The position numbers and the translations under genes were made by a program. From a virus: 24,184 nt of DNA. Below the pieces are notes generated by a model. That model ran no database searches. It was given only the letters and a program-made list of their open reading frames with translations, and was not told the DNA's origin. The stretch covers positions 1-24,184 of the IMG/VR virus record IMGVR_UViG_3300032516_000197; one strand, 5' to 3'. Below are positions 6,100 through 23,252 of this stretch, one piece after another; the first letter of the stretch is position 1; the number at the start of each line of letters is the position of its first letter.

Positions 6100-8535
6100 T
6101 TAACGAGGCTCAAATTCAGCCAAATCAAAGCCATCTAAACTATCTTCATTTGATTCAAAATTCAATGGAGGAAGATTGTTTTTACGTTGGTCTATTAATT
6201 TAGATTGCTCTGTATTTTGTTGACTAATCCGCTTAGCTTTAGCATCTTCACGAGCCTGTTCACGACCGCCTAACGTCTCCATTTCCATACCGTGAAGTTT
6301 TTGATTATACATAAACTCTTCTGCCATTAAGTGAGATTTTAGTTCAGCTTCTACTTGAATTTTCCTAATAGTTAATTCAGTTTCCATCTGCATCAACTGA
6401 CTTTTAGTTTGAACTTCTGTCTGCATTTTTTGCATAGCCATTTGACCTGCCATTTCTTGAGACTTCAATTGCTGTTGAGCCTGCATAGCTTGTTGTTGCA
6501 TTTTCAGTTGGTCTTCACGCTCTTGCTTCTTAATTCGTTTCATTTTCAATAATTGATTAGCAAGTTTAAGATTTTTAATCTCACGAATATCAATAGCATC
6601 TTCAAGATTAATATCTCCTTTTTGTAAAGCCATTTGAACATTAGCTTCAAGTTGTGCTCTCTGCTCTTCATCAGGCGCAACTTCAATAAATATACCAAAG
6701 TCGTAAATATAAAGGTCTGCTATATCTCCTAAAATAGACACATTGTACCTGCCAATTTGATTAATAAACTCATCTTTAAAGTCAGAGTATTCTAATATAT
6801 CTCCAATTCTATAAGTTAATGCCTCTGCCATTGAGCGATATATATATAAACCTCCATCAAGTATATGTCGAGTTGCTGTATTTGAGTTTAAAGCTGCTAA
6901 CTTCTGTAATCCTACTAAAGAATTAGGGTCAGGAGTAGAACCATCTCGTGCTTCGTTAAGCCCGGTTACAGTTCTAATCATATCCATATAGTGATTATAA
7001 TTAGTGATAAGCATTTGAGTTTTACCTACACCTGTGTTAGAGCTTAATTGAGTAATAGGAACTTTAGCATTATTAAAATCTCCATCTTGAGTAAAACTTC
7101 TACCAATTACCGAACCTGTTTGGAAATAAAGTCTTAGAGCGTCTTCCGGGTTGTAAGCAGCGCCACTTCCTAAATCAACTTCATTAAGTCCATCAGCATC
7201 AATAAATACACCATCAGGAACAACTCGATTAATTACTTGTTGTAATTTTAAATGTGTAATTTGAATAAGGTCTGCAAACGGTATCATTCTACGAACTAAA
7301 GACTCTATAGCTCCTTTATACATTCTTGGGGCACAAGCTACATAATTTGGCAATGCGTGTTGAGAAGCAGACTTTGGCCGTACCATATTCTCAGACATTT
7401 TCCATTGTAAAAGAATATTAGTTCCCATTACCATAATACCTTCATACCATACGTCAATAGTTTTTTCTATTTTCTCAAAATTACCTTCTTCCATCATTTG
7501 TGCCGGAGGATTGAAAGTATCATCTTTAGGAATAACTCGTGAACCGCCATTCTCAAGAATTTTTTTCTTAAAAACTATTTTCTTTGTAGTTTTATAATTA
7601 AAGTACATCAATGTACAAGTATCTCTTGAAAATACACTATTTTCGTAGAATTGAGCCACATTAAAATAATCATACCAACTTTGACTATATTGAGTAATTT
7701 CCTGTAAGTCTTCTTTAGTAAGGCTTTGGTCAATTTTCATTAACTCACTAATTGGAAGAGTTTTAATTTCTCCCCAATAAAAACAATCTTTAAAGTGAGG
7801 GTCTTCAGTATAGCTATAAACAACATTTGCAGGGTCAACATAAGATATTTTAACTCCTGTTCCTTGAAGAAATTCGTGTTTAGCAATAGATATACCAAGT
7901 ACTGTAGCATCGTAATCTAATCTCCAACGAATGTCGTTATAATGATTCTCATCAAATATGGTGTTAATAGCTTCTTCTTCTGCAATCTCAATTGCGGGTT
8001 TATAATTAAGTTGCATAAACAAAGAAAGTTCTTCATCTGATTCAGGAAGTTTTTCAGGGTCCATTGTAAATGCATCAAAACCTGTGCTTTCTTTTATTTG
8101 ATTTAAAACAGGTTTAGCAATCATTTGCCCTTCAATCATATCCTGATACTTACTTCTTTTGGATTGAGACATAGCGTCTTGCGCGTATACCTTTACCTTA
8201 AACAATCTATCGGACATCCCATTAACAACAATATCAACAAACTTAGGAATAATAGGAACAGGTGTCCAATCCAAGTTCAAATAAGATAAATCTCCATCAA
8301 TAGCTAATTCATTCTTATACTTTGAAATCGACTGCTCCCCTCTTGCATATAGCCTTAGCCTATGAAATTCTCTCCATTGACCATAATATCTACAATTATT
8401 TCCATCCTTTCTGAACCATTCATATTGAATAGCTTGACCAACTTGTAATCCAAATTGTTGGGATGCTTTTTCCTTATCAGTAGCTAACTGACTTGGAAAG
8501 GCTGACGATGTAATATCTATTGTTACGTTTTTCAT
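6100..8535 (-). CDS. Portal protein
   Basis: 811 residues, the large portal size typical of crAss-like and related phages. The N-terminal region has YYGQWREFHRLRLYARGEQS, then IDGDLSYLNLDWTPVPIIPK and FVDIVVNGMSDRLFKVKVYA, a block I recall as characteristic of these portals. The centre contains PLPNYVACAPRMYKGAIESL-like text (ALPNYVACAPRMYKGAIES) and a clip/stem candidate region. From about residue 640 to 770 the protein is a long Gln/Met/Lys-rich helix, consistent with a crown or barrel at the portal C-terminus. The ATG overlaps the terminase stop in ATGA, so the two are translationally coupled. The portal dodecamer would form the packaging channel at one capsid vertex. Function is assigned from recalled sequence pattern and TerL adjacency. 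Confidence 0.85.
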   Translation of the reverse strand: MKNVTIDITSSAFPSQLATDKEKASQQFGLQVGQAIQYEWFRKDGNNCRYYGQWREFHRLRLYARGEQSISKYKNELAIDGDLSYLNLDWTPVPIIPKFVDIVVNGMSDRLFKVKVYAQDAMSQSKRSKYQDMIEGQMIAKPVLNQIKESTGFDAFTMDPEKLPESDEELSLFMQLNYKPAIEIAEEEAINTIFDENHYNDIRWRLDYDATVLGISIAKHEFLQGTGVKISYVDPANVVYSYTEDPHFKDCFYWGEIKTLPISELMKIDQSLTKEDLQEITQYSQSWYDYFNVAQFYENSVFSRDTCTLMYFNYKTTKKIVFKKKILENGGSRVIPKDDTFNPPAQMMEEGNFEKIEKTIDVWYEGIMVMGTNILLQWKMSENMVRPKSASQHALPNYVACAPRMYKGAIESLVRRMIPFADLIQITHLKLQQVINRVVPDGVFIDADGLNEVDLGSGAAYNPEDALRLYFQTGSVIGRSFTQDGDFNNAKVPITQLSSNTGVGKTQMLITNYNHYMDMIRTVTGLNEARDGSTPDPNSLVGLQKLAALNSNTATRHILDGGLYIYRSMAEALTYRIGDILEYSDFKDEFINQIGRYNVSILGDIADLYIYDFGIFIEVAPDEEQRAQLEANVQMALQKGDINLEDAIDIREIKNLKLANQLLKMKRIKKQEREDQLKMQQQAMQAQQQLKSQEMAGQMAMQKMQTEVQTKSQLMQMETELTIRKIQVEAELKSHLMAEEFMYNQKLHGMEMETLGGREQAREDAKAKRISQQNTEQSKLIDQRKNNLPPLNFESNEDSLDGFDLAEFEPR

Positions 8536-10826
8536 TTGATTAATTGACTTGTTGAACCATCATTAGAATACCTTGCGAAGTTAATACTTATTTTTGAATC
8601 TTTTTTCTCAGGCATATATAAATGCTTTTGGTTAGCCATAATAGCTAACCCCGAACTTATAGACGCATCAAATTTAGTTCTATCGTTTATATCAAACTTT
8701 GACCAATCTTCTAATGTTCTTGTAAAAGGCATAGTGCCTATATCTCCTCCATCTCTATAAGCTCCTGAAAAATCTATCCCAACATACTTTTCTATGTAAG
8801 ATTCAATTGCGGATGCGTGAGATTGTTTTACATCTTCTGATGAGTTGGGTATTCCTCCAAGCTCACGTTCAGTTTTTGATAATTTATTGTATTGTTTATC
8901 AGGCCTATTTAAACAATAGTTCCTATAACCTCTATTTTTAAAATGATAAAGTAATCGAGGTTTATTGTTCTCTATCAAAATTGGCATACCATAAAACACA
9001 CAGGCCATTAAAACTTCCTCAAAAAATATCTCAGCAGTCTGAGGTCTTGCTATGTATTCTAAAAAAAATTCATTTGAAGGAGCATCATCCATATTAAATT
9101 TAGTAAGTCCGTGAAGAGAACCGTTAGACCCCCTTCCCCCCACTACTGCGGATATATCGTAAGAGTCGCAACCAAAGGACCCAATGTGTTCATTTCCGGG
9201 ATATTTCATCCCATTTTTTGTATGTATATTGTTTTGTAAATGTTTTGCAGGAGTCCAACTAGTTAAAAATCTACCTCTTGAGTCAGGAGTAAAAACAACC
9301 TTGGTATCTTTAATACCATCTCTCCAATGCAAAGAACCACGAGTAAGATAATGTTCCTTTATCAAACTATCATTGTAGTCAATCTGTTGGTATATTTTTG
9401 TAAGATTAAACAAAGACTGCTTACTCTCATCTCTAAATGCGTGAGATTCTGTTCTTGGAAACTGTCTGTAAAACTCATTTAATGCATCAGCGTCATTTTT
9501 AAGTGAATCAACTTCATTCTCCCAATAGTCAATAGCACCCATACTAATTATTCCTCCATCAACTCCTGTAATTGGAACTTCAGGAGTCCTAAATACAGGC
9601 ATACCATATACATCTATAAAGCCTTCCATATTCCATTCCATAGGAATAAACAAGCCATACAGTCCACTTTTTGTTTGACCATTAGCGTTACGAGTTGTAA
9701 CCACTGAGTCTTCAAACATATCTTTATAATTCTGACCCCCTTTTGACAATGCATTTGAGGTTGACCCCATCATACATTTGCCGATAATCTTAGAGCCTAA
9801 TCTTAAACAAGTTTTAGTTACTCGCCAATTCTCTTTTATATTTTGAGGTTTAGTCCATTTAGCACTTTCATCGTGAGCTAATAACAGTAATTTTTCCCCA
9901 TCATAAGAGTTGTCATCTGTGTTTTTCCAATCTATTGATGTATCTAATCCTTCTATGACTTCATTTTCGGTGTCATACATATTTTTCTTTGTAATCTTAG
10001 ATGCCGGTACACGAAAAGACAATTCAGTTTTTGGCTTATCCATACCATCCATAATAGGTTTGAAGAAAAATGGAAGTCTGCTATTAATCGGAACTACTTT
10101 ATCAGTAAACATTTTCTTAGCATCAGCTCCCGTTTTTGATAGGATACCGACTCTCGCATCACGCGCAAGAGTTCCTACGTTTACACATTCAGATGAAGAC
10201 ATAAAAGAAAATCCTGAACGTCTAATCTTTAAGTACATCATACCGAAACTTCTTTTGTCAGCCCTACAAGCCTCCCAAAAAATCCAAAATATTCTATTTG
10301 CTTCTCTAAAATCAGGATACCCAATATCAATACTTGCCCACTGAAGATACATATAGTGAGAACCTGTTATGTATGTAGAAACCCCATTATTCATAAACCA
10401 CACCCCATTCTCTCTGCAATCAAATTCATTCTCAATATAATCAACCCATTTGTTTTTAAATTCAGATGGCATTTCATTCCATTGGAATATTGATTGTATT
10501 CTTGAAAGTTGCTTAGGTAGTGACTCTCTTTCCCAATGTTGTTCAGATTTTGTAGTACTTCTTTTTATGCAATCCTTTGGAGTTGGAGGAAGTGCAATAT
10601 AAAGACCTGTTATATTTATAATATCCCCTATCTGTCCTGTTTTAGATATTATAACAACATCGTATTGGTCATTATATCCATACACCCAAGACTTGTTACC
10701 ATTCTTTTTTGTAATGGCATTTTTGGGTATATAGTCTTTGACTACCGTATATAAGCTATTTAGACCTTCTTTCTGCAAACCCTTGTTTTGTATCAGTTTT
10801 AGTTCCTCCTTTTTCAGACATCTCAA
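8532..10826 (-). CDS. terL: Terminase large subunit (packaging ATPase/nuclease)
   Basis: 764 residues, the long form seen in crAss-like phages. Residues 200-208 (KIRRSGFSF) sit where Walker A is expected but lack the classical GK[ST]. Walker B is LLLLAHDE (313-320), with D319 and catalytic E320. The coupling motif is GSTSN at 354-358. The C-terminal nuclease half has GCDSYDIS (D554) and MPILIENN (E619), matching the acidic residues of the RNase H-like terminase nuclease. It precedes portal, with the ATGA overlap. The first ATG gives a 71-bp overlap with the upstream small gene; a TTG at 10778 (residue 17) would reduce this to 23 bp, so the start is uncertain. It would drive DNA into the prohead and cut concatemers. 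Confidence 0.9.
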   Translation of the reverse strand: MRCLKKEELKLIQNKGLQKEGLNSLYTVVKDYIPKNAITKKNGNKSWVYGYNDQYDVVIISKTGQIGDIINITGLYIALPPTPKDCIKRSTTKSEQHWERESLPKQLSRIQSIFQWNEMPSEFKNKWVDYIENEFDCRENGVWFMNNGVSTYITGSHYMYLQWASIDIGYPDFREANRIFWIFWEACRADKRSFGMMYLKIRRSGFSFMSSSECVNVGTLARDARVGILSKTGADAKKMFTDKVVPINSRLPFFFKPIMDGMDKPKTELSFRVPASKITKKNMYDTENEVIEGLDTSIDWKNTDDNSYDGEKLLLLAHDESAKWTKPQNIKENWRVTKTCLRLGSKIIGKCMMGSTSNALSKGGQNYKDMFEDSVVTTRNANGQTKSGLYGLFIPMEWNMEGFIDVYGMPVFRTPEVPITGVDGGIISMGAIDYWENEVDSLKNDADALNEFYRQFPRTESHAFRDESKQSLFNLTKIYQQIDYNDSLIKEHYLTRGSLHWRDGIKDTKVVFTPDSRGRFLTSWTPAKHLQNNIHTKNGMKYPGNEHIGSFGCDSYDISAVVGGRGSNGSLHGLTKFNMDDAPSNEFFLEYIARPQTAEIFFEEVLMACVFYGMPILIENNKPRLLYHFKNRGYRNYCLNRPDKQYNKLSKTERELGGIPNSSEDVKQSHASAIESYIEKYVGIDFSGAYRDGGDIGTMPFTRTLEDWSKFDINDRTKFDASISSGLAIMANQKHLYMPEKKDSKISINFARYSNDGSTSQLIK

Positions 10827-11044: not shown

Positions 11045-11611
11045 TTATCTATAAAACATTACATATACCATTCGCCCCTCTTTCCAACCTGTGTTTGGAT
11101 ATTTACTATGAAAGTAATTAGAAGGATACATAAGTGCACGATTGGGTCTATATCCTACTACAGAATGTAAATCCCAATTATCTAAATTGTTTGCCTCCTC
11201 TGAAAGAAATCTATTAGTTTCTTCATCAGAGGTATCTAAAGACATCTCATAACCTACATCTTTATGCCTCCAAAAAGCGGTCCCGTGCAACCCTTCTTTT
11301 GTAGATGGAGATATATATAACACAAGTGCTCTTTCGGGTCTAATATCGCCTACTTTTGAGTCTGCGTGGATTCTCCAATCAGTATCGAACTCTTCAGTTG
11401 CTACTCTAAAAAATCCTAATAAACATTCCCTTTTGGTTTTATCTATATCGCTTAATTTTTCAATAATAAAATTATCAAATTCTACGCTACTATATTGAAC
11501 CCAAAACTTTTTATCTCCAACCTCAACTTCTTGAAACTGATTACTTGCTAATCCATTATAAATAGAATTATAAATATCTTCATCCAAGAAATCATCTATA
11601 ATGTTTATCAT
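11045..11611 (-). CDS. 2-oxoglutarate/Fe(II)-dependent oxygenase
   Basis: 188 residues. The iron triad is visible: H82-x-D84 in WRIHADS and the distal H168 in SNYFHSKYPNTG, followed by R180 in EGRMVYVMFY, the usual 2-oxoglutarate anchor. The stretch HGTAFWRHKDVG between them fits the double-stranded beta-helix fold of prolyl-4-hydroxylase-like phage oxygenases. Reaction expected: hydroxylation coupled to decarboxylation of 2-oxoglutarate to succinate; the substrate cannot be read from the sequence (protein side chain or modified base are both possible). Its ATG overlaps the stop of the GroES-like gene in ATGA, and it lies just upstream of terL, so it is made with the late proteins and may modify a virion protein. 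Confidence 0.8.
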   Translation of the reverse strand: MINIIDDFLDEDIYNSIYNGLASNQFQEVEVGDKKFWVQYSSVEFDNFIIEKLSDIDKTKRECLLGFFRVATEEFDTDWRIHADSKVGDIRPERALVLYISPSTKEGLHGTAFWRHKDVGYEMSLDTSDEETNRFLSEEANNLDNWDLHSVVGYRPNRALMYPSNYFHSKYPNTGWKEGRMVYVMFYR

Positions 11612-12171
11612 AGCTTTATGGTTATTTGATGGTCATACATACGATATAACTTCTCTCCATCAACAGTAAATTCGTATTCACTATCGGGAGAAAAACAAAT
11701 ATAATCGCCTTCTTTTATGCCTTTACTTAAAAGGTACTCATTTGGATAAACCATCTGACCCATTAACGGCTCTTCTTTTATGAATTTTTTTATGTAATAA
11801 TCTACAGCAGAGATTGGTCTAACAAAGCAATACTTATCATAAGCATTCCAAGTAGAATCTTTTTTATACATAAAGAATTGGTCTGTTTCTATAAAGAATA
11901 AATCATCTTTAAAAAAACTTTTGCCGCTTTTTTGACGACCTCTCATATCATTATAATACTTAAAAGCATTGTGATGAACGAGAAGTGTGTCTCCTATTGA
12001 TATAGGACCGGTATAGCCTACGGGAAGCTCGATAACTTCTGCATATCTGTTAGAGAACTTATGGTCCTCTTCTGAAGTACTGACGATAAAATCAATTCCT
12101 CCTATTTTTTTTGTGTTATCGTATCGCTTTCCATTCATAGGCCTTACTATGAAATAGAATGGAGATTTCAT
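11608..12171 (-). CDS. Two-domain GroES-like (cpn10-fold) protein
   Basis: 187 residues. Residues about 3-103 read like a co-chaperonin: FYFIVRPMN (first strand), a flexible stretch IGGIDFIVSTSEEDHKFSNR at the mobile-loop position, YAEVIELP (the RGEV strand), ISIGDTLLVHHNAFKYY (the VGD-V strand) and FFIETDQFFMYKK (the closing strand). Residues about 114-187 repeat the pattern: YCFVRPI, GQMVY, GIKEGDYICFSPDSEYEF, GEKLYRMYDHQITIKL. So the protein looks like a tandem duplication of the GroES fold. It is distinct from the 85-aa canonical GroES at 21373-21630. Being inside the head operon (TAATG overlap upstream, ATGA overlap downstream), a role in capsid folding or as a structural beta-barrel is inferred. 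Related phage proteins have, as I recall, been labelled GroES-like. Confidence 0.65.
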   Translation of the reverse strand: MKSPFYFIVRPMNGKRYDNTKKIGGIDFIVSTSEEDHKFSNRYAEVIELPVGYTGPISIGDTLLVHHNAFKYYNDMRGRQKSGKSFFKDDLFFIETDQFFMYKKDSTWNAYDKYCFVRPISAVDYYIKKFIKEEPLMGQMVYPNEYLLSKGIKEGDYICFSPDSEYEFTVDGEKLYRMYDHQITIKL

Positions 12172-12398
12172 TAAAAGTTTATATTAAATTCGATTGAAAT
12201 TGGTATAGTAGCAGTAAATTCTTTCCAAAGAACAACTTCTTCCTTCACATTAATAATATATATTAATATGCTTCCTGTTTCAGGTTGTCTTCTGATAAGA
12301 TGAATTGTATTTGAATCTCCAAGAATGGACTGACCAACAATGTAATGCATAGCACCACTTTTGTAGTCAGGTCCAATGGATATTTTACGAATATCCAT
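12171..12398 (-). CDS. Conserved phage hypothetical protein
   Basis: 75 residues, mostly beta-strand in character. The start, MDIRKISIGPDYKSGAMHYI followed by VGQSILGDSNTIHLI, and the end VLWKEFTATIPISIEFNINF match my memory of a small protein that accompanies GroES-like and terminase genes in uncultured phages. No cysteines, membrane segments or known catalytic motifs. Start and stop are joined to both neighbours by TAATG overlaps, so it is translated together with the GroES-like protein. Function unknown. Confidence 0.65.
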   Translation of the reverse strand: MDIRKISIGPDYKSGAMHYIVGQSILGDSNTIHLIRRQPETGSILIYIINVKEEVVLWKEFTATIPISIEFNINF

Positions 12399-13076: not shown

Positions 13077-15260
13077 TTAAATTATATTTACTACTGTTCC
13101 ATTTCTCCACAAATCTCCTGCCACTAATCCTGTTGCTGACGTAGGAAGGTTAGCCATATTAACAGTTCCTCTAAGAAGTGTTTTTACTATAGCTGTGCTA
13201 CCCAATACAACAGTGTTACTTCCTGCGCCTACTGCTCCTGTACCTATTATTATGGAGTTAGTATTATTTATACCCAAAGTAGCTGTTCCTTGTCCAATTG
13301 CAACGTTTCCACTTCCGGTAGTATTTGCTCCTAATGCATTAAATCCAATTGCAACATTATTTGCTCCCGTTGTGTTTGCAGGCAATGACCCATTACCAAT
13401 AGCAGTATTGTTGATTCCTGTCGTACTAACTGACATTGAGTTATACCCAACAGCTGTATTGTAACTTGCTGTTGTAGCAGTAAGTAAAGCACTTCTTCCA
13501 ACTGCTGTATTTTGAAACCCTATAGTATTGGCTCTCAATGCTTCACGACCAAGTGCAGTGTTGTTGTTTGCTGTATTAAAATACAAAGCCTCATAACCAA
13601 CTGCTGTGTTTTGAGTTCCTGATACATTACTAAATAATGAACTTGTTCCAATTGCAACATTAAAAGAAGCTGTTGTAGATGAAAAAGATGCGTATGCTCC
13701 AAGCGATGTATTGCCACTTCCTGATATATTACTTCCTGATGCAAAATCTCCAACCGCGGTATTATCATTTCCTACAGTATTAGATTCTAAAGAATTATTA
13801 CCAACTGCGGTATTATTATCTCCAAAAGTATTAGATTGTAAAGAACGATTTCCAATAGCTGTGCAATAATCTGCTGCTTCATTAGTAGCCATAGACCTAA
13901 AGCCTACTGCTGTATTATTAAAACCGTTTATGTTAAGATTCATAGAATCCTTTCCAACTGCGGTATTTTGTAATCCTACTGTATTAGTTAAAAGTGCATT
14001 TTTTCCAATTGCAGTATTATCATCTGCTATGTTATTTTGCAAAGAAAGGTCTCCAATTGCTGTATTATTATTTCCTATTAAATTTGTAATCAATGACCCA
14101 AAACCTACCGCTGTATTAGAATTACCTGTCGTGTTTGAAGACAATGAACCATAACCTACCGCTGTATTAGCACTACCCGTTGTGTTCTCTGCTAATGAAT
14201 TTGAACCTATTGCAACGCTGCCTGAGCCTGTCGTATTATTAGCAAGTGAAGACTGACCAATTGCAGTATTACTACTTCCGGTAGTATTTGTGTTCATTGA
14301 AAGTTGACCGATTGCTGTATTAGAACTACCTGTTGTATTATTAGGTAATGAATTTTGACCAATTGCTGTATTTAAAAGTCCTGTTGTATTACTAAATAAT
14401 GAACTTGTTCCAATTGCAGTATTACCCCCCCCTGTTGTATTGTTAAATAATGAATTTTGACCAATAGCAGTATTAGAACTACCTGTTGTATTTGCATTTA
14501 ATGCTGTAAGTCCGAAACAAGTATTTGATGTTATATTTCCATTACCTTTTCCTGCACTTATACCATTTATTAATAAATCATTAGTAAACGACAAAGTGAA
14601 ACTACCCATAGTAACTACTCTGTTTCCACTTAAAGTACCATTTGAGTTGTATATATTAACTGATGCACTTCCGGTTGTAACACTTCCATCTGCCATTAAA
14701 AATTGAGCAGAAGTACCTCCTACCTTTACAAATGAATTTGCGGTTATTGTATTAGTTCCTAAATTAACATTTGTTGTAGCACCTGTGTAAGGCACATAAG
14801 TTGCTAACGCAGCTGCTGTAATGTAAACGCTACTGTCAATAGTACCGTTTGCTTTTAAAAATTGAGCGGCAGTTCCACCTGACTTTATGAAAGAGTTTGC
14901 GGTTATTGTGTTAGTCCCTAAATTTACATTTGTTGTAGCACCTGTGTAAGGCACATAAATTGATAATGCAGCCGCTGTAATATAGATACTGCTATCAACT
15001 GAACCATCAGCTTTTAAAAATTGAGAAGAAGTTCCTCCTGACCTTACAAATGAATTGGCTATAATAGGCAAAGTGGTAGTATTGCCTGCTGTTGTTACTG
15101 ATTGTAATGTATTAGTGACACCAATGGAAAATAAGTCCTTTATTGATTGAAGAGTAAAGTTAACCGTATTATTCTGAGGAGGTCCTCCTGCGGTTGTTCC
15201 GATTAATTTATCTGAAAGCTGAGGAGTTGAGTCTATTTCGTATGTGCTTATTTTTGCCAT
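13077..15260 (-). CDS. Tail fibre / receptor-binding protein with repeat shaft
   Basis: 727 residues. Residues 1-50 (AKISTYEIDSTPQLSDKLIG, later FTLQSIKDLFS) resemble the conserved virion-attachment domain of flavobacterial phage fibres. Then come two and a half copies of a 53-residue unit with FLKADGS, YVPYTGATTNVNLGTNTITA, and from about residue 245 to 670 roughly 24 copies of a 17-residue unit of the form NTAIGxxSLxxNTTGxx, like the left-handed beta-roll of YadA-type trimeric adhesin heads. The end (NSIIIGTGAVGAGSNTVVLG, then LPTSATGLVAGDLWRNGTVV) has no S74 chaperone domain. It probably forms a trimeric fibre that touches the host surface. No signal peptide. Confidence 0.85.
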   Translation of the reverse strand: MAKISTYEIDSTPQLSDKLIGTTAGGPPQNNTVNFTLQSIKDLFSIGVTNTLQSVTTAGNTTTLPIIANSFVRSGGTSSQFLKADGSVDSSIYITAAALSIYVPYTGATTNVNLGTNTITANSFIKSGGTAAQFLKANGTIDSSVYITAAALATYVPYTGATTNVNLGTNTITANSFVKVGGTSAQFLMADGSVTTGSASVNIYNSNGTLSGNRVVTMGSFTLSFTNDLLINGISAGKGNGNITSNTCFGLTALNANTTGSSNTAIGQNSLFNNTTGGGNTAIGTSSLFSNTTGLLNTAIGQNSLPNNTTGSSNTAIGQLSMNTNTTGSSNTAIGQSSLANNTTGSGSVAIGSNSLAENTTGSANTAVGYGSLSSNTTGNSNTAVGFGSLITNLIGNNNTAIGDLSLQNNIADDNTAIGKNALLTNTVGLQNTAVGKDSMNLNINGFNNTAVGFRSMATNEAADYCTAIGNRSLQSNTFGDNNTAVGNNSLESNTVGNDNTAVGDFASGSNISGSGNTSLGAYASFSSTTASFNVAIGTSSLFSNVSGTQNTAVGYEALYFNTANNNTALGREALRANTIGFQNTAVGRSALLTATTASYNTAVGYNSMSVSTTGINNTAIGNGSLPANTTGANNVAIGFNALGANTTGSGNVAIGQGTATLGINNTNSIIIGTGAVGAGSNTVVLGSTAIVKTLLRGTVNMANLPTSATGLVAGDLWRNGTVVNII
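13245..14527 (-). repeat. About 24 copies of a 51-bp repeat in the tail fibre gene
   Basis: The units encode 17 residues each of the form N-T-A-[IV]-G-x-x-[SA]-L-x-x-N-T-T-G-x-x; two units are 16 residues. They are diverged in DNA, so copy number is probably old, but the nearly identical inner units could still recombine. Boundaries approximate. Confidence 0.85.
14690..15060 (-). repeat. 159-bp repeat (2.5 copies) in the fibre N-terminal shaft
   Basis: A 53-codon unit carrying SGGTSSQFLKADGS and YVPYTGATTNVNLGTNTITA is present twice in full and once in part, at 159-bp spacing. The copies are closely similar at the DNA level. Boundaries approximate. Confidence 0.85.
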
Positions 15261-15902: not shown

Positions 15903-16310
15903 TTATTTACATTTAGCTTTACCGCTATTATTAGTGTAAATACATCTACCCTTGTCTCCAAGTGGATTTAATCTACTTAATAAACTTGGTCTATCCGTAT
16001 TAGCACTTTTGGTCTCTTTCATTTTACCACCGCCTTCAACTTCTGTAAATTTTACCTTGCTATCGTTTTTTACTTTTTTAGCATACTCGTCAACGGTTAA
16101 TCCTCGTCTTTCAGCTCCTTGTTTAAATTTTTCTGTCATTCTATTTGTTACATCTTGACTTATAGAATCTTTATATTGTTTAACTCTTTCCATTCCTCCC
16201 TTTTGTTTCAACTCAGCTATTTTTTTTGCTTTTTCAGGCTGAGACATTTGCTGCCAAGTTTTAGGGTCAGGAGTACTTGCTAACGGGGTGTCGGGTCTTT
16301 GAATTGCCAT
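15903..16310 (-). CDS. RPDTPLA-tagged basic hypothetical protein
   Basis: 135 residues, lysine-rich. The N-terminus MAIQRPDTPLASTPDPKTWQ carries the RPDTPLAxTP signature shared with three proteins at 20080-20911, about 4 kb away. The rest is helical and charged (SQPEKAKKIAELKQKGGMER, then AERRGLTVDEYAKKVKNDSK) and ends in NPLGDKGRCIYTNNSGKAKC-K with a Cys pair. No known enzyme motif. It lies 5 bases downstream of the candidate spanin gene and ends 53 bases before the next. The shared tag plus basic body suggests a virion-packaged or assembly-associated protein; that is inference. Confidence 0.65.
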   Translation of the reverse strand: MAIQRPDTPLASTPDPKTWQQMSQPEKAKKIAELKQKGGMERVKQYKDSISQDVTNRMTEKFKQGAERRGLTVDEYAKKVKNDSKVKFTEVEGGGKMKETKSANTDRPSLLSRLNPLGDKGRCIYTNNSGKAKCK

Positions 16311-17528: not shown

Positions 17529-17959
17529 TATTGTAAATTGTTTATATTTTGCTTCACTTCTTTTGCTCTTAAAAATGCTTTTTTAAGCAATTGCCAAATG
17601 TCAACTTTAAAAGTCTCCTCAACATTTTCTTTTATAGAAACCAACTCTATAAAAATTAACATTATTGCACATATCTTAGTAAACATATAGTCAAACTTAA
17701 ACCAATGGAATACAAATTCATTTAAAACAAATTTATCTATTAAAAAAAGGAACAAAATACATATCTCATATAATGCCATTTTTGATATTATATTTGACAA
17801 GACTCTACTCCTAATGCTTGCCCATCCTTTTAATTTTACACTTTTAAAAATTCCTGTAAAGGTATCAAGAATTATTGCTGCTGCTACCGCAATTAAAAGC
17901 CCGTGTATCGGAACAAATAATAATATTAGCGATGAGAATATGTAATTTATATATTTCAT
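17528..17959 (-). CDS. Holin
   Basis: 143 residues with three hydrophobic segments at about 6-31, 58-76 and 92-108 and a basic tail ([13 protein letters not shown]). Residues 32-39 (DTFTGIFK) carry the D-x-x-T-G-x-x-K signature after the first helix that I know from the toxin-secretion/phage-lysis holin families of Gram-positive and Bacteroidota phages. It ends in the start codon of the M15 endolysin gene and begins in a TAATG overlap with the upstream 44-aa gene. It should form membrane lesions that release the endolysin to the periplasm. Confidence 0.8.
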
Positions 17960-18093
17960 TATCTTCCTTGTCCTCTATACGCTTTCACGTAGTTTTTACT
18001 TGATTTTAAAGTGCTCGTTTTAGTCTTTGCAGCTACGCCTGACTTCTTTGGTTTTGCTTTATAAGCACTATCTTGTTGTTTTACTTTTGCCAT
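17959..18093 (-). CDS. Small basic protein (44 aa)
   Basis: A short frame from ATG at 18093 to TAA at 17959: it starts MAKVKQQDSAYKAKPKKSGV and ends SKNYVKAYRGQGR. It contains 14 Lys/Arg in 44 residues and no hydrophobic segment. The stop overlaps the holin start as TAATG, the same coupling seen at other real gene joints here, and only 1 base separates it from the upstream stop; both support a real gene. It resembles the other MAK-starting micro-proteins at 19751-20064 in style. Function unknown; DNA or RNA binding or virion packing is possible. Confidence 0.6.
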   Translation of the reverse strand: MAKVKQQDSAYKAKPKKSGVAAKTKTSTLKSSKNYVKAYRGQGR

Positions 18094-18094
18094 T

Positions 18095-18583
18095 TTACCA
18101 AAGAGCTAATACATTAGTAGCTGTAGTTCCTGTTGCTCTAAGCTGTACAATTTGAATAGGAAGAATTGTTCCAACAGGTACTGATAAAAAAGTTACAATA
18201 TCTCCACCTATAGTAACAACAGATACATTTCCTGCTCCACCTATATACAAATTACATCCTTCGTTTGCTATTCCTGATTGAGGAGACATTCCATAAACAG
18301 AAAAAGTTTTACCTGTAGCAGTGAATATATTTGCATTTAATGTTAATTGAGTTTGACTATCTACATTTAATACAGTTGCAGCAGTTCCATCGGTATCATT
18401 ATGAACAACATCTCCTGCCCTTACATTATCTGAAACAAATGTAGCTGAACTACTTATTAATTTTAAAGACGTTGAGGTGGTATTTGTTCCTGTGTCAACA
18501 AAACTATATGGAACTGCAATATCAGCATTGTCTGATTTATGCGCTATTATCGCTCTTGAAAATTGTGATTTGAATACTGACAT
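18095..18583 (-). CDS. Beta-rich virion protein, possible capsid decoration protein
   Basis: 162 residues, Thr/Ser/Val/Gly rich with little helix, typical of head decoration or tail surface proteins. Residues about 36-98 (SLKLISSSATF, RAGDVVHND, QTQLTLNANIF, KTFSVYG) match the inserted beta module in the ring protein at 1581-2546 and more weakly that in the capsid protein. The C-terminal 60 residues (GCNLYIGGAGNVSVVTIGGD, then FLSVPVGTILPIQIVQLRAT) look like strands that would sit on a surface lattice. The downstream small gene starts one base after its stop, and the upstream gene's stop overlaps its start. Role inferred from composition and shared module. Confidence 0.55.
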   Translation of the reverse strand: MSVFKSQFSRAIIAHKSDNADIAVPYSFVDTGTNTTSTSLKLISSSATFVSDNVRAGDVVHNDTDGTAATVLNVDSQTQLTLNANIFTATGKTFSVYGMSPQSGIANEGCNLYIGGAGNVSVVTIGGDIVTFLSVPVGTILPIQIVQLRATGTTATNVLALW

Positions 18584-18765
18584 TATTTTAGTATTTTATT
18601 GATTAATAAATCGGGGTTATTTAATTTTTCTTTTCGTGCCTCACATCCACAAGGTACTCCTGTAATTTCAGAAACTTTTTCAACAACAGTTTTTATTCCT
18701 GTTGCTGTCGTTACTTTTTCAATAACATCTCCAAAGCCAAGTCTTTTAGTTCTTATATAGTGCAT
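18583..18765 (-). CDS. Conserved small phage protein with CGC motif
   Basis: 60 residues. It reads LGFGDVIEKVTTATGIKTVV, then SEITGVPCGCEARKEKLNNP. The G-L/F-G-D-x-I-E-K-V-T-x-A-T-G-I-K plus C-G-C-x-x-R-K-E-x-L-N pattern is one I recall from many phages of Bacteroidota and T4-like groups, always without assigned function. Two cysteines around one glycine could bind metal with a partner. A TACCTTTG sequence lies only 3 bases upstream of the ATG, too close for a normal leader. The stop overlaps the next start by 1 base. Confidence 0.7.
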   Translation of the reverse strand: MHYIRTKRLGFGDVIEKVTTATGIKTVVEKVSEITGVPCGCEARKEKLNNPDLLINKILK

Positions 18766-18775
18766 AACAAAGGTA

Positions 18776-18895
18776 TTACTTTTTTTTATTTTTTTGAACA
18801 GGTAGTTTACTTACGTTCCCTTTTAAAAACTTCATCTTACCATCTAATGATTTCTTAGACTCGTATTGTTTTGCTTTCTCAGTTACTTTTTTCAT
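18776..18895 (-). CDS. Small basic protein (39 aa)
   Basis: A frame from ATG at 18895 to TAA at 18776. It starts MKKVTEKAKQYESKKSLDGK, continues MKFLKGNVSKLPVQ and ends in NKKKK-type lysines. It fills the gap between two clear genes with 3 bases to the upstream stop. Lysine-rich, no hydrophobic core. Could be chance, but spacing and composition match the neighbouring micro-proteins. Function unknown. Confidence 0.5.
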   Translation of the reverse strand: MKKVTEKAKQYESKKSLDGKMKFLKGNVSKLPVQKNKKK

Positions 18896-18898
18896 CTT

Positions 18899-19237
18899 TT
18901 AAATTTTAGTCACACGATTACCCATTCCAACTTTTGATTTTTCTGCTTTTTTAGCAGTCAATTTAGATTTGCTTATTTCAGATATGGTTTTTGGTGTTTT
19001 TGAAGATACTTTTACTTTTGGCCTACAATACTCATTACTTCCTCCCGCACCACAAGCTTTGCCTGTTTTAGTATCAGTCCATTTTTCTTTATCCCATCTT
19101 TTTAGAGATGTTCCTGCTTCTGTTTTTCTAACAACGCCTGAACCCTTCCTACATTTAGCAATAGCTTGTGACGCTCTTGCAGATGGAAAAACATCGTACT
19201 GAGCTTTTACTTTTTTATAACACGCATCTTTTGGCAT
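18899..19237 (-). CDS. DUF5872-like Cys/Lys-rich phage protein
   Basis: 112 residues, very basic. The first part, ACYKKVKAQYDVFPSARASQ followed by AIAKCRKGSG, is the pattern I know as DUF5872 from phages. The second part, SLKRWDKEKWTDTKTGKACG and NEYCRPKVKVSSKTPKTISE, is a further Cys-containing unit I recall as often fused to or near it. Four cysteines spaced in two pairs could form a small metal-bound core. It starts in the stop codon of the next upstream gene (1-base overlap). Function unknown; such proteins are often late, and may be virion components. Confidence 0.7.
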   Translation of the reverse strand: MPKDACYKKVKAQYDVFPSARASQAIAKCRKGSGVVRKTEAGTSLKRWDKEKWTDTKTGKACGAGGSNEYCRPKVKVSSKTPKTISEISKSKLTAKKAEKSKVGMGNRVTKI

Positions 19238-20079: not shown

Positions 20080-20373
20080 TTACGTTGTTTTTATTTTAGT
20101 TCTATCTGCGAATGATGCTAATCCATAAAGTCTTGAACCTTCTCCTGCAATAGACTTTCTTCCTTTACTTCTTTCTATTCTTGCCGCATCAAGCTTTGCT
20201 TGAGTTTCATTTTTAGATGCCTGCCTTTCAGCGCTTCTTTTATTAATATCATCTATTATTGATTTTAAATTTGTAACAGGTGTAGTTGCATCAGGTGTTT
20301 CTGCCAATGGAGTATCAGGCCTTTTAACCGCATCAGCTTTTCTTTCTTCCTTTGTTTTTTTTACAATTCCCAT
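20080..20373 (-). CDS. RPDTPLA-tagged hypothetical protein (97 aa)
   Basis: 97 residues. RPDTPLAETP is at 18-27 after a basic lead (MGIVKKTKEERKADAVK). The body is helical and charged (LKSIIDDINKRSAERQASKN, then KLDAARIERSKGRKSIAGEG). No Cys, no membrane segment, no known domain. It is one of three adjacent proteins with the same signature. Six bases separate it from the upstream gene. Function unknown. Confidence 0.6.
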   Translation of the reverse strand: MGIVKKTKEERKADAVKRPDTPLAETPDATTPVTNLKSIIDDINKRSAERQASKNETQAKLDAARIERSKGRKSIAGEGSRLYGLASFADRTKIKTT

Positions 20374-20378
20374 AGTTT

Positions 20379-20570
20379 CTATTGTTGAGGTGTTTCAGGT
20401 GCAGTAGGCACGATTGCTTTGATTTTATCTATAGCACTGTTTGCAGTTTGCTCAAATTTTGTAGCAACTCTTTGCTGAGGCATACCTCCAATTTGTGTTG
20501 TAGGTTGTAAGCCTGAACTAACAGGTTGTGGTTCAGGCGTTGCCGCTAATGGAGTATCAGGTCTTTGCAT
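20379..20570 (-). CDS. RPDTPLA-tagged hypothetical protein (63 aa)
   Basis: 63 residues. RPDTPLAATP begins at residue 3 of the protein, directly after Met-Gln. It is followed by a Pro/Gln-rich linker (EPQPVSSGLQPTTQIGG) and one short amphipathic helix (KFEQTANSAIDKIKAIVP), ending TAPETPQQ. It looks like a tag plus disordered linker plus short helix. Two bases separate it from the upstream gene. Function unknown. Confidence 0.55.
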   Translation of the reverse strand: MQRPDTPLAATPEPQPVSSGLQPTTQIGGMPQQRVATKFEQTANSAIDKIKAIVPTAPETPQQ

Positions 20571-20572
20571 TG

Positions 20573-20911
20573 TTATTTATTTTTTTTAAAAAGATTTATT
20601 ATTTTAGGACCTAAATCATTTCTTCTTGTAGCATTATAAAGTCTTTCGTCTCTATTCTCATCAGTAATTGGTGGAGGAGTAGCCGCTAATGGTGTATCAG
20701 GTCTAAGAACTTTTTTACCTTGTGATTCACGATTAAGTTTGCTTTCTGACTTCATTATAAACTCATCAGCCTGCGCCTTTCTTTTGTTTAGAGACTCCTT
20801 TCTATTCTCAGCCCTATCTTCCATCCTGTTAGCAACTTTTTTTGCTCTTTCAGGATTTGTTTCGGCTATTCTGCCAATTCTTTTATATTGACCGGGTCTT
20901 AATTCTTCCAT
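20573..20911 (-). CDS. RPDTPLA-containing basic protein, first gene of the late leftward operon
   Basis: 112 residues, Arg/Lys/Glu-rich. Residues 1-65 are a charged helix region (ELRPGQYKRIGRIAETNPER, then KKVANRMEDRAENRKESLNK). RPDTPLAATP is at 69-78, followed by a short C-terminal part ending LGPKIINLFKKNK. Here the signature is internal instead of N-terminal. It is the first minus-strand gene after the divergent promoter at 20931-20974 and so likely begins the transcript that continues into the lysis and fibre genes. Function unknown. Confidence 0.65.
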   Translation of the reverse strand: MEELRPGQYKRIGRIAETNPERAKKVANRMEDRAENRKESLNKRKAQADEFIMKSESKLNRESQGKKVLRPDTPLAATPPPITDENRDERLYNATRRNDLGPKIINLFKKNK

Positions 20912-20974: not shown

Positions 20975-21407
20975 TCAAGATGATTACCTAAAATATTGGA
21001 GAGTCATTCGCCAATTCGCAAAAATTAAATACGAACTAACTCAGGCTGACTTAGATATGCTATTGTTCTTATACTCTGAAAAGTATTTTGGAAAAGATAA
21101 GTTTGAAGAGTTTGACAGTCTTTTAGGTTGGGATGTAACTCGTTTCTTCAGACTTCAAAAAGATGGGTGGATTGTAAAGTTTAGAAATAGAGTTGGCAAT
21201 AGAAAGGCTCTATACCAATTGACAGTCAAATCCACGAGAATGATTCAATCACTTTATAGAAAACTAAGCGGGGAAGAAATCCCCGTTAGTAATTCTAATA
21301 ATAAAATGTTCTTAAAGAACGTATCATATTCAGACAAAGTCTATCGCGATATGATTATCGAAATGAACAAAGTTATAAAACAACAACGACATCATTCTCG
21401 CGAATAA
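20964..21407 (+). CDS. Putative winged-helix transcriptional regulator
   Basis: 147 residues, the only plus-strand gene in the window. Residues about 10-45 give two helices (YWRVIRQFAKIKYELTQADL, then DMLLFLYSEKYFG), residues 50-68 a helix-turn-helix-like segment (FDSLLGWDVTRFFRLQKDGW), and residues 68-87 a basic wing with strands (VKFRNRVGNRKALYQLTVKS). This is the layout of a MarR-like winged helix. The C-terminal 50 residues are basic and helical. It is divergent from the late genes and its 3' end overlaps groES by 35 bases in the opposite direction. A role in controlling the late promoter is inferred from position. Confidence 0.55.
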   Translation: MKSNQDDYLKYWRVIRQFAKIKYELTQADLDMLLFLYSEKYFGKDKFEEFDSLLGWDVTRFFRLQKDGWIVKFRNRVGNRKALYQLTVKSTRMIQSLYRKLSGEEIPVSNSNNKMFLKNVSYSDKVYRDMIIEMNKVIKQQRHHSRE

Positions 21408-21630
21408 TTGTGTATTGCTTATCATCAATCAGCATTGTAAATCCGTGCGCCTTATCGTAGTAGATGTCATCATCTTTTTTGATATGCGGTACATCAGTAC
21501 CGCTTTCTACTACTAAGCCACGCTTGTAACGCATCTGATTCATATCTTCTCCCGATAGAAACAATCCTGATTCAGTTTTTAACTCTTCATCAATGGTCTT
21601 GATGACGATGTATTTACCAATTGGTTTCAT
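21373..21630 (-). CDS. groES: Phage co-chaperonin GroES
   Basis: 85 residues, about 10 shorter than bacterial GroES. It begins KPIGKYIVIKTIDEE, then KTESGLFLSGEDMNQMRYKR: residues 16-34 correspond to the mobile loop, with the hydrophobic tripeptide L-F-L (23-25) in place of I-V-L, which docks on GroEL. Then RGLVVESGTDVPHIKKDDDI (the V-x-x-G-D region) and FTMLIDDKQYTIIRENDVVV (closing strands). The roof loop is short. It follows groEL by 11 bases; in bacteria the order is usually groES first. Would cap the phage or host GroEL ring during folding of capsid proteins, by analogy with T4 gp31. Confidence 0.85.
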   Translation of the reverse strand: MKPIGKYIVIKTIDEELKTESGLFLSGEDMNQMRYKRGLVVESGTDVPHIKKDDDIYYDKAHGFTMLIDDKQYTIIRENDVVVVL

Positions 21631-21641
21631 AGTTTTTAGTT

Positions 21642-23252
21642 TTAAGATTGTTCATAGCTACGCGCTAATGTAATTATTGCATCGGTGCTCAAAATTGTCA
21701 CAGCTACACTCACAGCATTTTGTAATGCACTTCGCGTTACTTTCAATGGGTCAATTACTCCCATCTTAATCAAGTCTCCATACTCTCTTGTCTTCAAGTT
21801 GTATCCTTGACCTTCAGCAATACCATCTTTGTAAATATCTTCAGCTTTCAATCCTGCGTTTGCAAGTATCTGTAAGAACGGAGCCATAAGTGCTGCCTTC
21901 AAAATCATCATAGCTGCATTATACTCAGGACTTTTATCCTCATCTATAGCCAAAGCCGCTGACTCTTCAAGTAAAGCTTTCCCTGCGCCCGGAAGAATCC
22001 CCTCTTCAAGTGCTGAACGTACCGCGCAAACAGCATCATCAACTCTGTCGTACAACTCTTTCTGCTCCAAGTCTGTCTGTCCACCCACAAAAATAACCCC
22101 AATTCCACCTGTTAATGAAGCAATTCTCTCCAATAAATGGTCCTTTTCGTGCTTCTTTGTTGCGTTTTTATGCGAATCCCATAGCTGACTTACCCTCTCA
22201 TCAATAGTTTTTTGGTCTAATTTCAAGTCTGACCTGACAATAACAGTCTTATCTTTACTTACAATTACCTTAGCTGCGTGTCCAAGGTCTTCATAATTAA
22301 TGATACTCAAGTCATCTCCTGTCTTTTCGCTGAAGTATGTAGCGCCAACACTAATAGCAATGTCTTGCATTAACTCGTGTTGCTTATATCCAAATGCCGG
22401 AGGCGCAACTGCGCATACTTTGATAAGTCCTTTTACAACATTAGCTGCCAAACTGTTAATCAAGTTCTGATTGCACGGAGATATAATTAATAACTTCTTA
22501 CCTTGTTGTACAATTGGTCTAAACACTTCCTCAATCTGAAGAACATTTGTAATCTCCATATCAGCAACCATAACCATAGCATCCTCAAATACGCACTCAT
22601 CTTTCTTTTGGTCATTGATAAATATTGGACTCAAGTACCCTCTGTCAAATTTCAACCCCATTGTGGTCTCAGCATAGGTCTCATCGTTCTGACTCTTCTC
22701 CACCGTAACAATACCTGTCTTGCCGACATCTTTGTATACCTCTGAGATAATCTTCCCAATCTCCCTGTCGTTATTTGCCGATATACTCGCTACATCTGTA
22801 AGCATTGTACTTGTAACTCTCTTGCTACGTCTTCGTAACTTGTCCACCACCTTGTCGCTTATCTCCACCATACTTCTCAGAACCTCTGTCCGGTTCAATC
22901 CTTCAGTGATATGCTCAAGTCCACTCAATACCAATCCTTCAGTGAGGACAATGGCAGTTGTCGTACCATCTCCTGCCGAAGTAGCAGTCTTCTCAGCGGC
23001 TTCCTTCATCATCTTAACCGCAAGGTTCTCCGAAGGGTCCAATAAATCAATTGATTTGGCAACAGTAACTCCATCTTTGGTAACTGTGATACCGTGAGTA
23101 TGGTTTGGAGATTCAATAAGTACAGGATTACCTCCCGGACCTAATGTACTTTTTACAGCTTTGGACATTTTCCTAACGCCACTTACTAATTTTCCTCTTC
23201 CTGCCGCCCCAAACTCTAAGTTTTTTGGGGAATAACCTTGATTTTCTAACAT
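21642..23252 (-). CDS. groEL: Phage chaperonin GroEL (Hsp60)
   Basis: 536 residues, full-length three-domain layout. ATPase residues are kept: D60 (TKDGVTVAKSI), D95 (AGDGTTTA), D406 (YDRVDDAVCAVRSALEEG) and D501 (GVIDPLKVTRSAL). Changes: TLGPKG is TLGPGG (no Lys at 40), and the GGG loop is PGAG (421-424). The apical substrate/GroES site is partly kept (RGYLSPIFIN; the usual Tyr is Ile). The C-terminal GGM tail is missing; it ends ITLARSYEQS. Paired with groES. Leader ATCAAATCAAATG and a TATATTTG box lie upstream. Two 60-base lines in the 5' half have 50-53% G+C, above most neighbours. Likely folds phage structural proteins in place of or beside the host machine. Confidence 0.95.
   Translation of the reverse strand: MLENQGYSPKNLEFGAAGRGKLVSGVRKMSKAVKSTLGPGGNPVLIESPNHTHGITVTKDGVTVAKSIDLLDPSENLAVKMMKEAAEKTATSAGDGTTTAIVLTEGLVLSGLEHITEGLNRTEVLRSMVEISDKVVDKLRRRSKRVTSTMLTDVASISANNDREIGKIISEVYKDVGKTGIVTVEKSQNDETYAETTMGLKFDRGYLSPIFINDQKKDECVFEDAMVMVADMEITNVLQIEEVFRPIVQQGKKLLIISPCNQNLINSLAANVVKGLIKVCAVAPPAFGYKQHELMQDIAISVGATYFSEKTGDDLSIINYEDLGHAAKVIVSKDKTVIVRSDLKLDQKTIDERVSQLWDSHKNATKKHEKDHLLERIASLTGGIGVIFVGGQTDLEQKELYDRVDDAVCAVRSALEEGILPGAGKALLEESAALAIDEDKSPEYNAAMMILKAALMAPFLQILANAGLKAEDIYKDGIAEGQGYNLKTREYGDLIKMGVIDPLKVTRSALQNAVSVAVTILSTDAIITLARSYEQS

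Follow-up and report, generated by a model that had tools for sequence, protein, structure and literature searches.

The minus strand of the window, by which we mean the whole stretch of 24,184 nucleotides analysed here (IMG/VR virus record IMGVR_UViG_3300032516_000197, positions 1 to 24,184), harbors at positions 11608-12171 a gene encoding a tandem of two GroES-like domains arranged head to tail, and this gene belongs to the core of a large group of podoviruses infecting Bacteroidota. Its product is probably a tandem co-chaperonin of the Cpn20 type that would associate with the single-domain GroES of the phage in a lid, probably of seven domains, on GroEL and would thereby contribute to the folding of head proteins. 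The family is already known under the name "co-chaperonin GroES," whereas its tandem architecture and the meaning of this architecture seem to have escaped notice so far. Indeed, in the open-licence literature we found no paper on the tandem architecture, on the constant company of a single GroES or on the likeness to plastid Cpn20, an absence that should be given little weight.

Apart from these phages, a layout comprising a two-domain GroES, a single GroES and a GroEL has been described for chloroplasts and apicoplasts only. A second case, borne by phages, would permit testing why lid subunits fuse and how a ring with seven-fold symmetry accommodates a protein with an even number of domains, and cultured model phages encoding the tandem gene exist, namely Cellulophaga phi38:1 and Flavobacterium Elemovirus. 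The gene also suggests that these aquatic phages, a very widespread group, depend on chaperonins to assemble their heads.

Gene and Domain Architecture

The initial annotation had placed the gene at positions 11608-12171, and these coordinates do hold one open frame, located on the minus strand and 187 codons long. According to the list of open reading frames, the ATG lies at 12171 and the stop at 11608-11610, the coding positions 11611-12171 specifying 187 amino acids; the plus strand is interrupted by stops throughout the same interval. Scans of IMG/VR returned at least hundreds of homologues, and the median dN/dS, calculated from 767 pairs of relatives among 64 clade members, is 0.056, a sign of strong purifying selection. 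On these two grounds, the gene is considered to be real. The protein matches the profile of phrog_13932 ("co-chaperonin GroES") with an E-value of 6.9e-24, residues 1-179 aligning with positions 1-191 of 200, and is thus a full-length member of that family.

Two cpn10-like halves had been proposed for the protein, and each half turned out to be GroES-like when tested separately by profiles, hhalign and column shuffles and, for the N-terminal half, by a structural model. A search of the window protein in Pfam and NCBIfam gave no match, the curated cut-off of Pfam Cpn10 (PF00166) not being reached, and homologues from phi19:3, phi38:1 and the genome G014 exceed this cut-off in their C-terminal half. 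In the window protein, the C-terminal domain (residues 113-187, positions 11611-11835, minus strand) matched solved GroES of the PDB over positions 116-187 with an E-value of 5.6e-5 when a 29-sequence profile was used. It also aligned in the expected register with 19 single-domain GroES sequences, a reference set made up almost entirely of phage proteins (hhalign E-value 7.6e-8). Similarly, the N-terminal domain (residues 1-104, positions 11860-12171, minus strand) aligned with this set in the expected register, the match being weaker than that of the C-terminal half (E-value 5.3e-5). The hhalign scores of the C- and N-terminal halves (42.9 and 30.5, respectively) are well above the maxima obtained after shuffling of columns (19.6 and 20.2), and none of 300 shuffles reached the real score in either case.

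When the two halves were compared directly with each other, the similarity was only marginal, as 9 of 300 shuffles equalled the real score, and a recent internal duplication of the GroES domain is therefore unsupported. The tandem might have originated in an old duplication or fusion.

Predicted Structure

The AlphaFold2 model of the tandem protein (pLDDT 80, pTM 0.76) exhibits low confidence in two loops at the mobile-loop position, at about residues 21-40 and 121-130, as would be expected of mobile loops. Chain R of 7ekq is the only PDB structure that matched the whole model with an E-value below 1e-3, and both domains were aligned in this match, with a precision that is moderate (212 columns, TM 0.57/0.55, rmsd 7.1). 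Single GroES chains reached a TMq of only about 0.25-0.31. Since 7ekq_R scores above single GroES chains, both domains must sit as they do in 7ekq_R, so that the predicted arrangement of the domains is, at this moderate precision, that of a solved plastid tandem chain. The structure 7ekq is a ClpP complex of Chlamydomonas that was later described with a heterotetramer of CPN11, CPN20, and CPN23 (PMC8889267). With its 194 residues, chain R can, by our reasoning, only be a two-domain member of the CPN complex.

When the N-terminal half was modelled alone, its best 13 PDB matches were all GroES, Cpn10 or gp31, none of them with an E-value below 1e-3, and the TM against single GroES chains was only about 0.5 with an rmsd mostly of 6-8. 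Both halves are thus assigned to the GroES beta-barrel fold, the C-terminal one through its sequence and the N-terminal one through its model together with the shuffle-controlled hhalign alignment. Two outcomes contrary to the proposal, namely a second half with a fold other than cpn10 and a lack of structural match to GroES in either half, were looked for and neither occurred.

Loops and Conserved Motifs

A flexible loop had been noticed in the first half, at the place of the mobile loop, and the corresponding region of the N-terminal domain (residues 13-42, positions 12046-12135, minus strand) is indeed a long loop, modelled with low confidence and lying in the register of the GroES mobile loop. 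It has the right place and length for such a loop, a hydrophobic triplet (FIV or LIL) and a strong conservation, and GGI-D-FIV lies within it together with STSEEDHKFSNR, which is almost invariant. The GGI triplet is variable among clade members, and the loop residues for GroEL contact are not obviously GroES-like in all members. In the 64 clade members, dN/dS is 0.040 for this loop versus 0.143 for the short loop at the mobile-loop position of the C-terminal domain (residues 120-135, positions 11767-11814, minus strand), which is the least constrained segment among those tested by dN/dS. The second loop is short in the clade of the window and in Elemovirus, and longer, with a GroES-like hydrophobic stretch, in the relatives from phi38:1, G014, and phi19:3. 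Phages without GroEL (phi19:3 and G014) may keep a second loop of bacterial type, a lead provided by two lineages.

Among the same 64 members, conservation is highest in STSEEDHKFSNR of the N-terminal loop and in an HHN motif with the hairpin that follows it. HHN and this extra hairpin form an insertion in the N-terminal domain (residues 66-86, positions 11914-11976, minus strand), in which 16 of 21 sites are invariant. HHN is present in all families except Baltivirus, and the insertion could possibly serve as a contact for a metal, the terminase or a client.

An ED...R motif is encoded in 91 of 139 tandem N-terminal loops and in 17 of 28 phage GroES, versus 0 of 29 bacterial GroES. By alignment scores, the tandem N-terminal loop is closer to phage than to bacterial GroES in only 8 of 14 lineages. 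A particular likeness of this loop to that of the phages' own GroES is therefore inconsistent, and we do not rely on it.

Single-Domain GroES and GroEL of the Phages

The phage had been said to possess a GroES already, and hence three GroES-like domains in two genes. Both statements agree with our results: a single-domain GroES of 85 residues, encoded on the minus strand at 21373-21630 (PF00166, E-value 1.7e-12), adjoins the GroEL gene and accompanies the two-domain tandem protein. The GroEL itself (positions 21642-23252, minus strand, 536 residues) was recognized by PF00118 (E-value 1.2e-57) and by alignment with GroEL of the PDB. It is of complete length, 519 residues aligning with an ancestral GroEL reconstructed for the Fibrobacteres-Chlorobi-Bacteroidetes group. 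In its apical region, it differs from the ancestral protein by the replacement of LLPIL with IEEVF and of LVVN with LAAN. The apical groove at these residues is, we assume, the binding site of mobile loops, and the differences would fit a specialised set of partners.

Co-occurrence was assessed in 28 near-complete genomes (at least 48.9 kb) carrying the tandem gene. All 28 encode a single-domain GroES and 25 encode a GroEL, no GroEL match being found in phi19:3, G014 and the contig G025. The gene may be cut off in G025, since this contig starts beside its GroES gene. In G019 (contig of L166), the GroEL match at 17709-19160 falls into three segments and contains a single internal TAA, so that the gene is either disrupted or mis-sequenced; GroES and the tandem gene were detected in this contig all the same.

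Neighbourhood and Distribution

The tandem gene overlaps the preceding 75-codon gene by 1 nt and the next gene by 4 nt, and it therefore sits in a tightly packed operon, which continues past it with the terminase, the portal, a Q-rich structural gene and the major capsid gene. The gene directly upstream (positions 12171-12398, minus strand, about 75 residues) has no Pfam or PHROG match. Elemovirus, phi38:1, Panino and ctfjg026 carry homologues of it at the corresponding position, and it was detected by tblastn at 84 of 113 loci; its product is possibly a partner of the tandem protein. On the other side lies a variable neighbour (positions 11045-11611, minus strand) of the 2OG-oxygenase-like or "minor coat protein" type (DUF6445), and no more than 23 of 111 loci have such an oxygenase-like gene separating the tandem gene from terL. 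The fixed downstream neighbour is the terminase large subunit gene, terL (positions 8532-10826, minus strand; phrog_6681, E-value 8e-182), which lies downstream of the tandem gene in all 89 relative loci with enough flanking sequence.

Homologues are carried by Flavobacterium Elemovirus, Cellulophaga phi38:1/Calle (Pervagoviridae), phi19:3-like phages (Pachyviridae), Maribacter phage Panino and the unclassified ctfjg026. They are labelled GroES/cpn10 or hypothetical in these phages, the GroES label being used in RefSeq and some GenBank deposits. With the Panino protein as query, no relatives were found in IMG/VR. The deposited record of phi38:1 labels the portal and capsid-region genes as structural and the tandem gene, gp89, and terL as hypothetical, which fits a tandem protein absent from the virion, an argument from silence.

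Relatives were also encountered in MAG contigs labelled archaeal, Aliivibrio and others. These are probably mis-binned phage DNA and were left out of host assignment. One of the loci (L131, CP070801.1 863633-884193) presents a related phage head operon within a 1.05 Mb "chromosome" of an Aenigmatarchaeota MAG and is probably a mis-joined or mis-binned phage contig.

Comparison with Known Co-Chaperonins

In plastids, Cpn10 and Cpn20 form hetero-rings of seven GroES domains whose partners are the GroEL-type Cpn60, and Cpn20 is treated in a review as chloroplast-specific (PMC5780408). Before the case of Plasmodium, Cpn20 was known only from algae and plants (PMC3542282). The phage protein resembles the plastid and apicoplast proteins (Cpn20, CPN23, Pf-cpn20) by its two head-to-tail GroES domains and by the match of its model to 7ekq_R. 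Similarly, a separate single-domain co-chaperonin exists alongside the tandem in both systems, Cpn10 in plastids and GroES in the phages. On the contrary, the phage tandem is phage-encoded, located beside terL and highly diverged in sequence. Both mobile loops were reported to be retained in apicomplexan Cpn20 (PMC3542282), whereas the second one is shortened in the clade of the window and in Elemovirus. The phage tandem likely arose separately from plastid Cpn20, by duplication or fusion.

The gp31 protein of T4, which acts together with GroEL in the folding of gp23, the capsid protein (PMC6318259), is likewise a phage protein with the GroES fold, and its structure 1g31 ranks 11th among the matches of the N-terminal half model. 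In the sequence of the tandem protein, the stretch between strands is short, which suggests that a long roof loop is lacking as it is in gp31. However, gp31 is a single domain that works with the GroEL of the host, whereas the tandem is usually accompanied by both a GroEL and a GroES of the phage. Bacterial GroES (PF00166) shares with each half the fold, the position of the loop, the GD-turn and the closing strands, but consists of one domain; among the matches listed, those to Cpn10 in 29 genomes from the order of a Cytophagales MAG all aligned as one domain. Many genomes of this order harbor a second, divergent Cpn10 (E-value about 1e-10 to 1e-13) beside a normal GroES. The phrog_13932 proteins of Elemovirus, phi38:1, phi19:3, and Panino belong to the same family as the window gene and are likewise encoded before terL.

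Proposed Function and Alternatives

In the co-chaperonin mechanism that we favour, the two fused GroES barrels would be placed as adjacent subunits are in a ring of GroES. The working mobile loop would be borne by the first domain, which would account for most of the binding to GroEL, and the second domain, whose own loop is mostly lost in this clade, would complete the ring. Three tandem chains and one single-domain phage GroES would thus make a seven-domain lid, as with plastid Cpn10/Cpn20, and such a mixed lid is the simplest reading because the single GroES is always present. The lid would cap the GroEL of the phage, or that of the host where the phage has none, and the capped chamber would suit late proteins of high abundance, among them the major capsid protein. 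Expression from the head and packaging operon would let the supply of tandem protein track the demand. Head proteins are suggested as clients because the gene is adjacent to terL and upstream of the capsid gene, and by analogy with gp31 and gp23 of T4. The ring stoichiometry, the GroEL binding and the clients of the tandem protein are all things that we infer. In a bolder version, which we put forward tentatively and at less than even chances, these phages would have evolved the plastid solution independently, with an obligate lid of three tandem proteins and one GroES on the phage GroEL, unequal loops of which one per tandem is working, and an asymmetric chamber dedicated to head proteins.

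Lids made of the tandem protein alone can be envisaged as well, as rings of three or four chains or of seven chains in two layers, with only the N-terminal domains touching GroEL and the single GroES serving other clients. The long constrained loop, limited to the N-terminal domain in the clade of the window, would agree with this, and the Cpn20 tetramers of plastids and Plasmodium are functional without Cpn10 (PMC5780408, PMC3542282). We nevertheless regard tandem-only lids as unlikely, given the single GroES in 28 of 28 genomes with the tandem gene and the modelled arrangement, which resembles a chain of the mixed Cpn11/20/23 cap.

The GroES fold could also have been repurposed for a structural or assembly role, such as head completion or an accessory function in terminase packaging, and have lost its link with chaperonins. 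The fixed place of the gene by terL rather than by groES/groEL would be explained in this way, as would its divergent sequence with a conserved HHN and an extra hairpin unlike GroES. Baltivirus and G014 moreover retain the tandem gene without a GroEL of their own, but there the GroEL of the host could serve. On the contrary, few parts of the protein are as conserved as the mobile-loop region, the partner GroES is always encoded, and it is the portal and capsid-region genes of phi38:1 that are labelled structural, not the tandem gene or terL. We judge a repurposed barrel improbable. The evidence for the tandem protein favours a co-chaperonin lid over a structural barrel because of these three points, together with the match to a plastid tandem and the presence of GroEL in 25 of 28 genomes. 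Finally, the idea that the tandem protein is a decoy or regulator, whether by blocking or redirecting the GroEL of the host or by capping a different ring, for instance ClpP, in the manner of plastid Cpn11/20/23, is very hard to credit: although the best solved match is the Cpn11/20/23 complex on ClpP, the gene has a late position in the head operon, nothing specific favours such a role and no ClpP gene was seen among the identified open reading frames of the window.

Other Genes of the Window

Four small proteins (15903-16310, 20080-20373, 20379-20570, and 20573-20911, minus strand) share the peptide RPDTPLAxTP near their end or in mid-chain. This peptide was found in 22 of 362 sequences examined, 6 of which have at least two copies, and it has the appearance of a short linear signal common to these proteins, for targeting, cargo or cleavage. 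In addition, the tail-spike or fibre protein encoded at 13077-15260 contains many repeats of the GNNTAIG type, a pattern similar to that of YadA heads.
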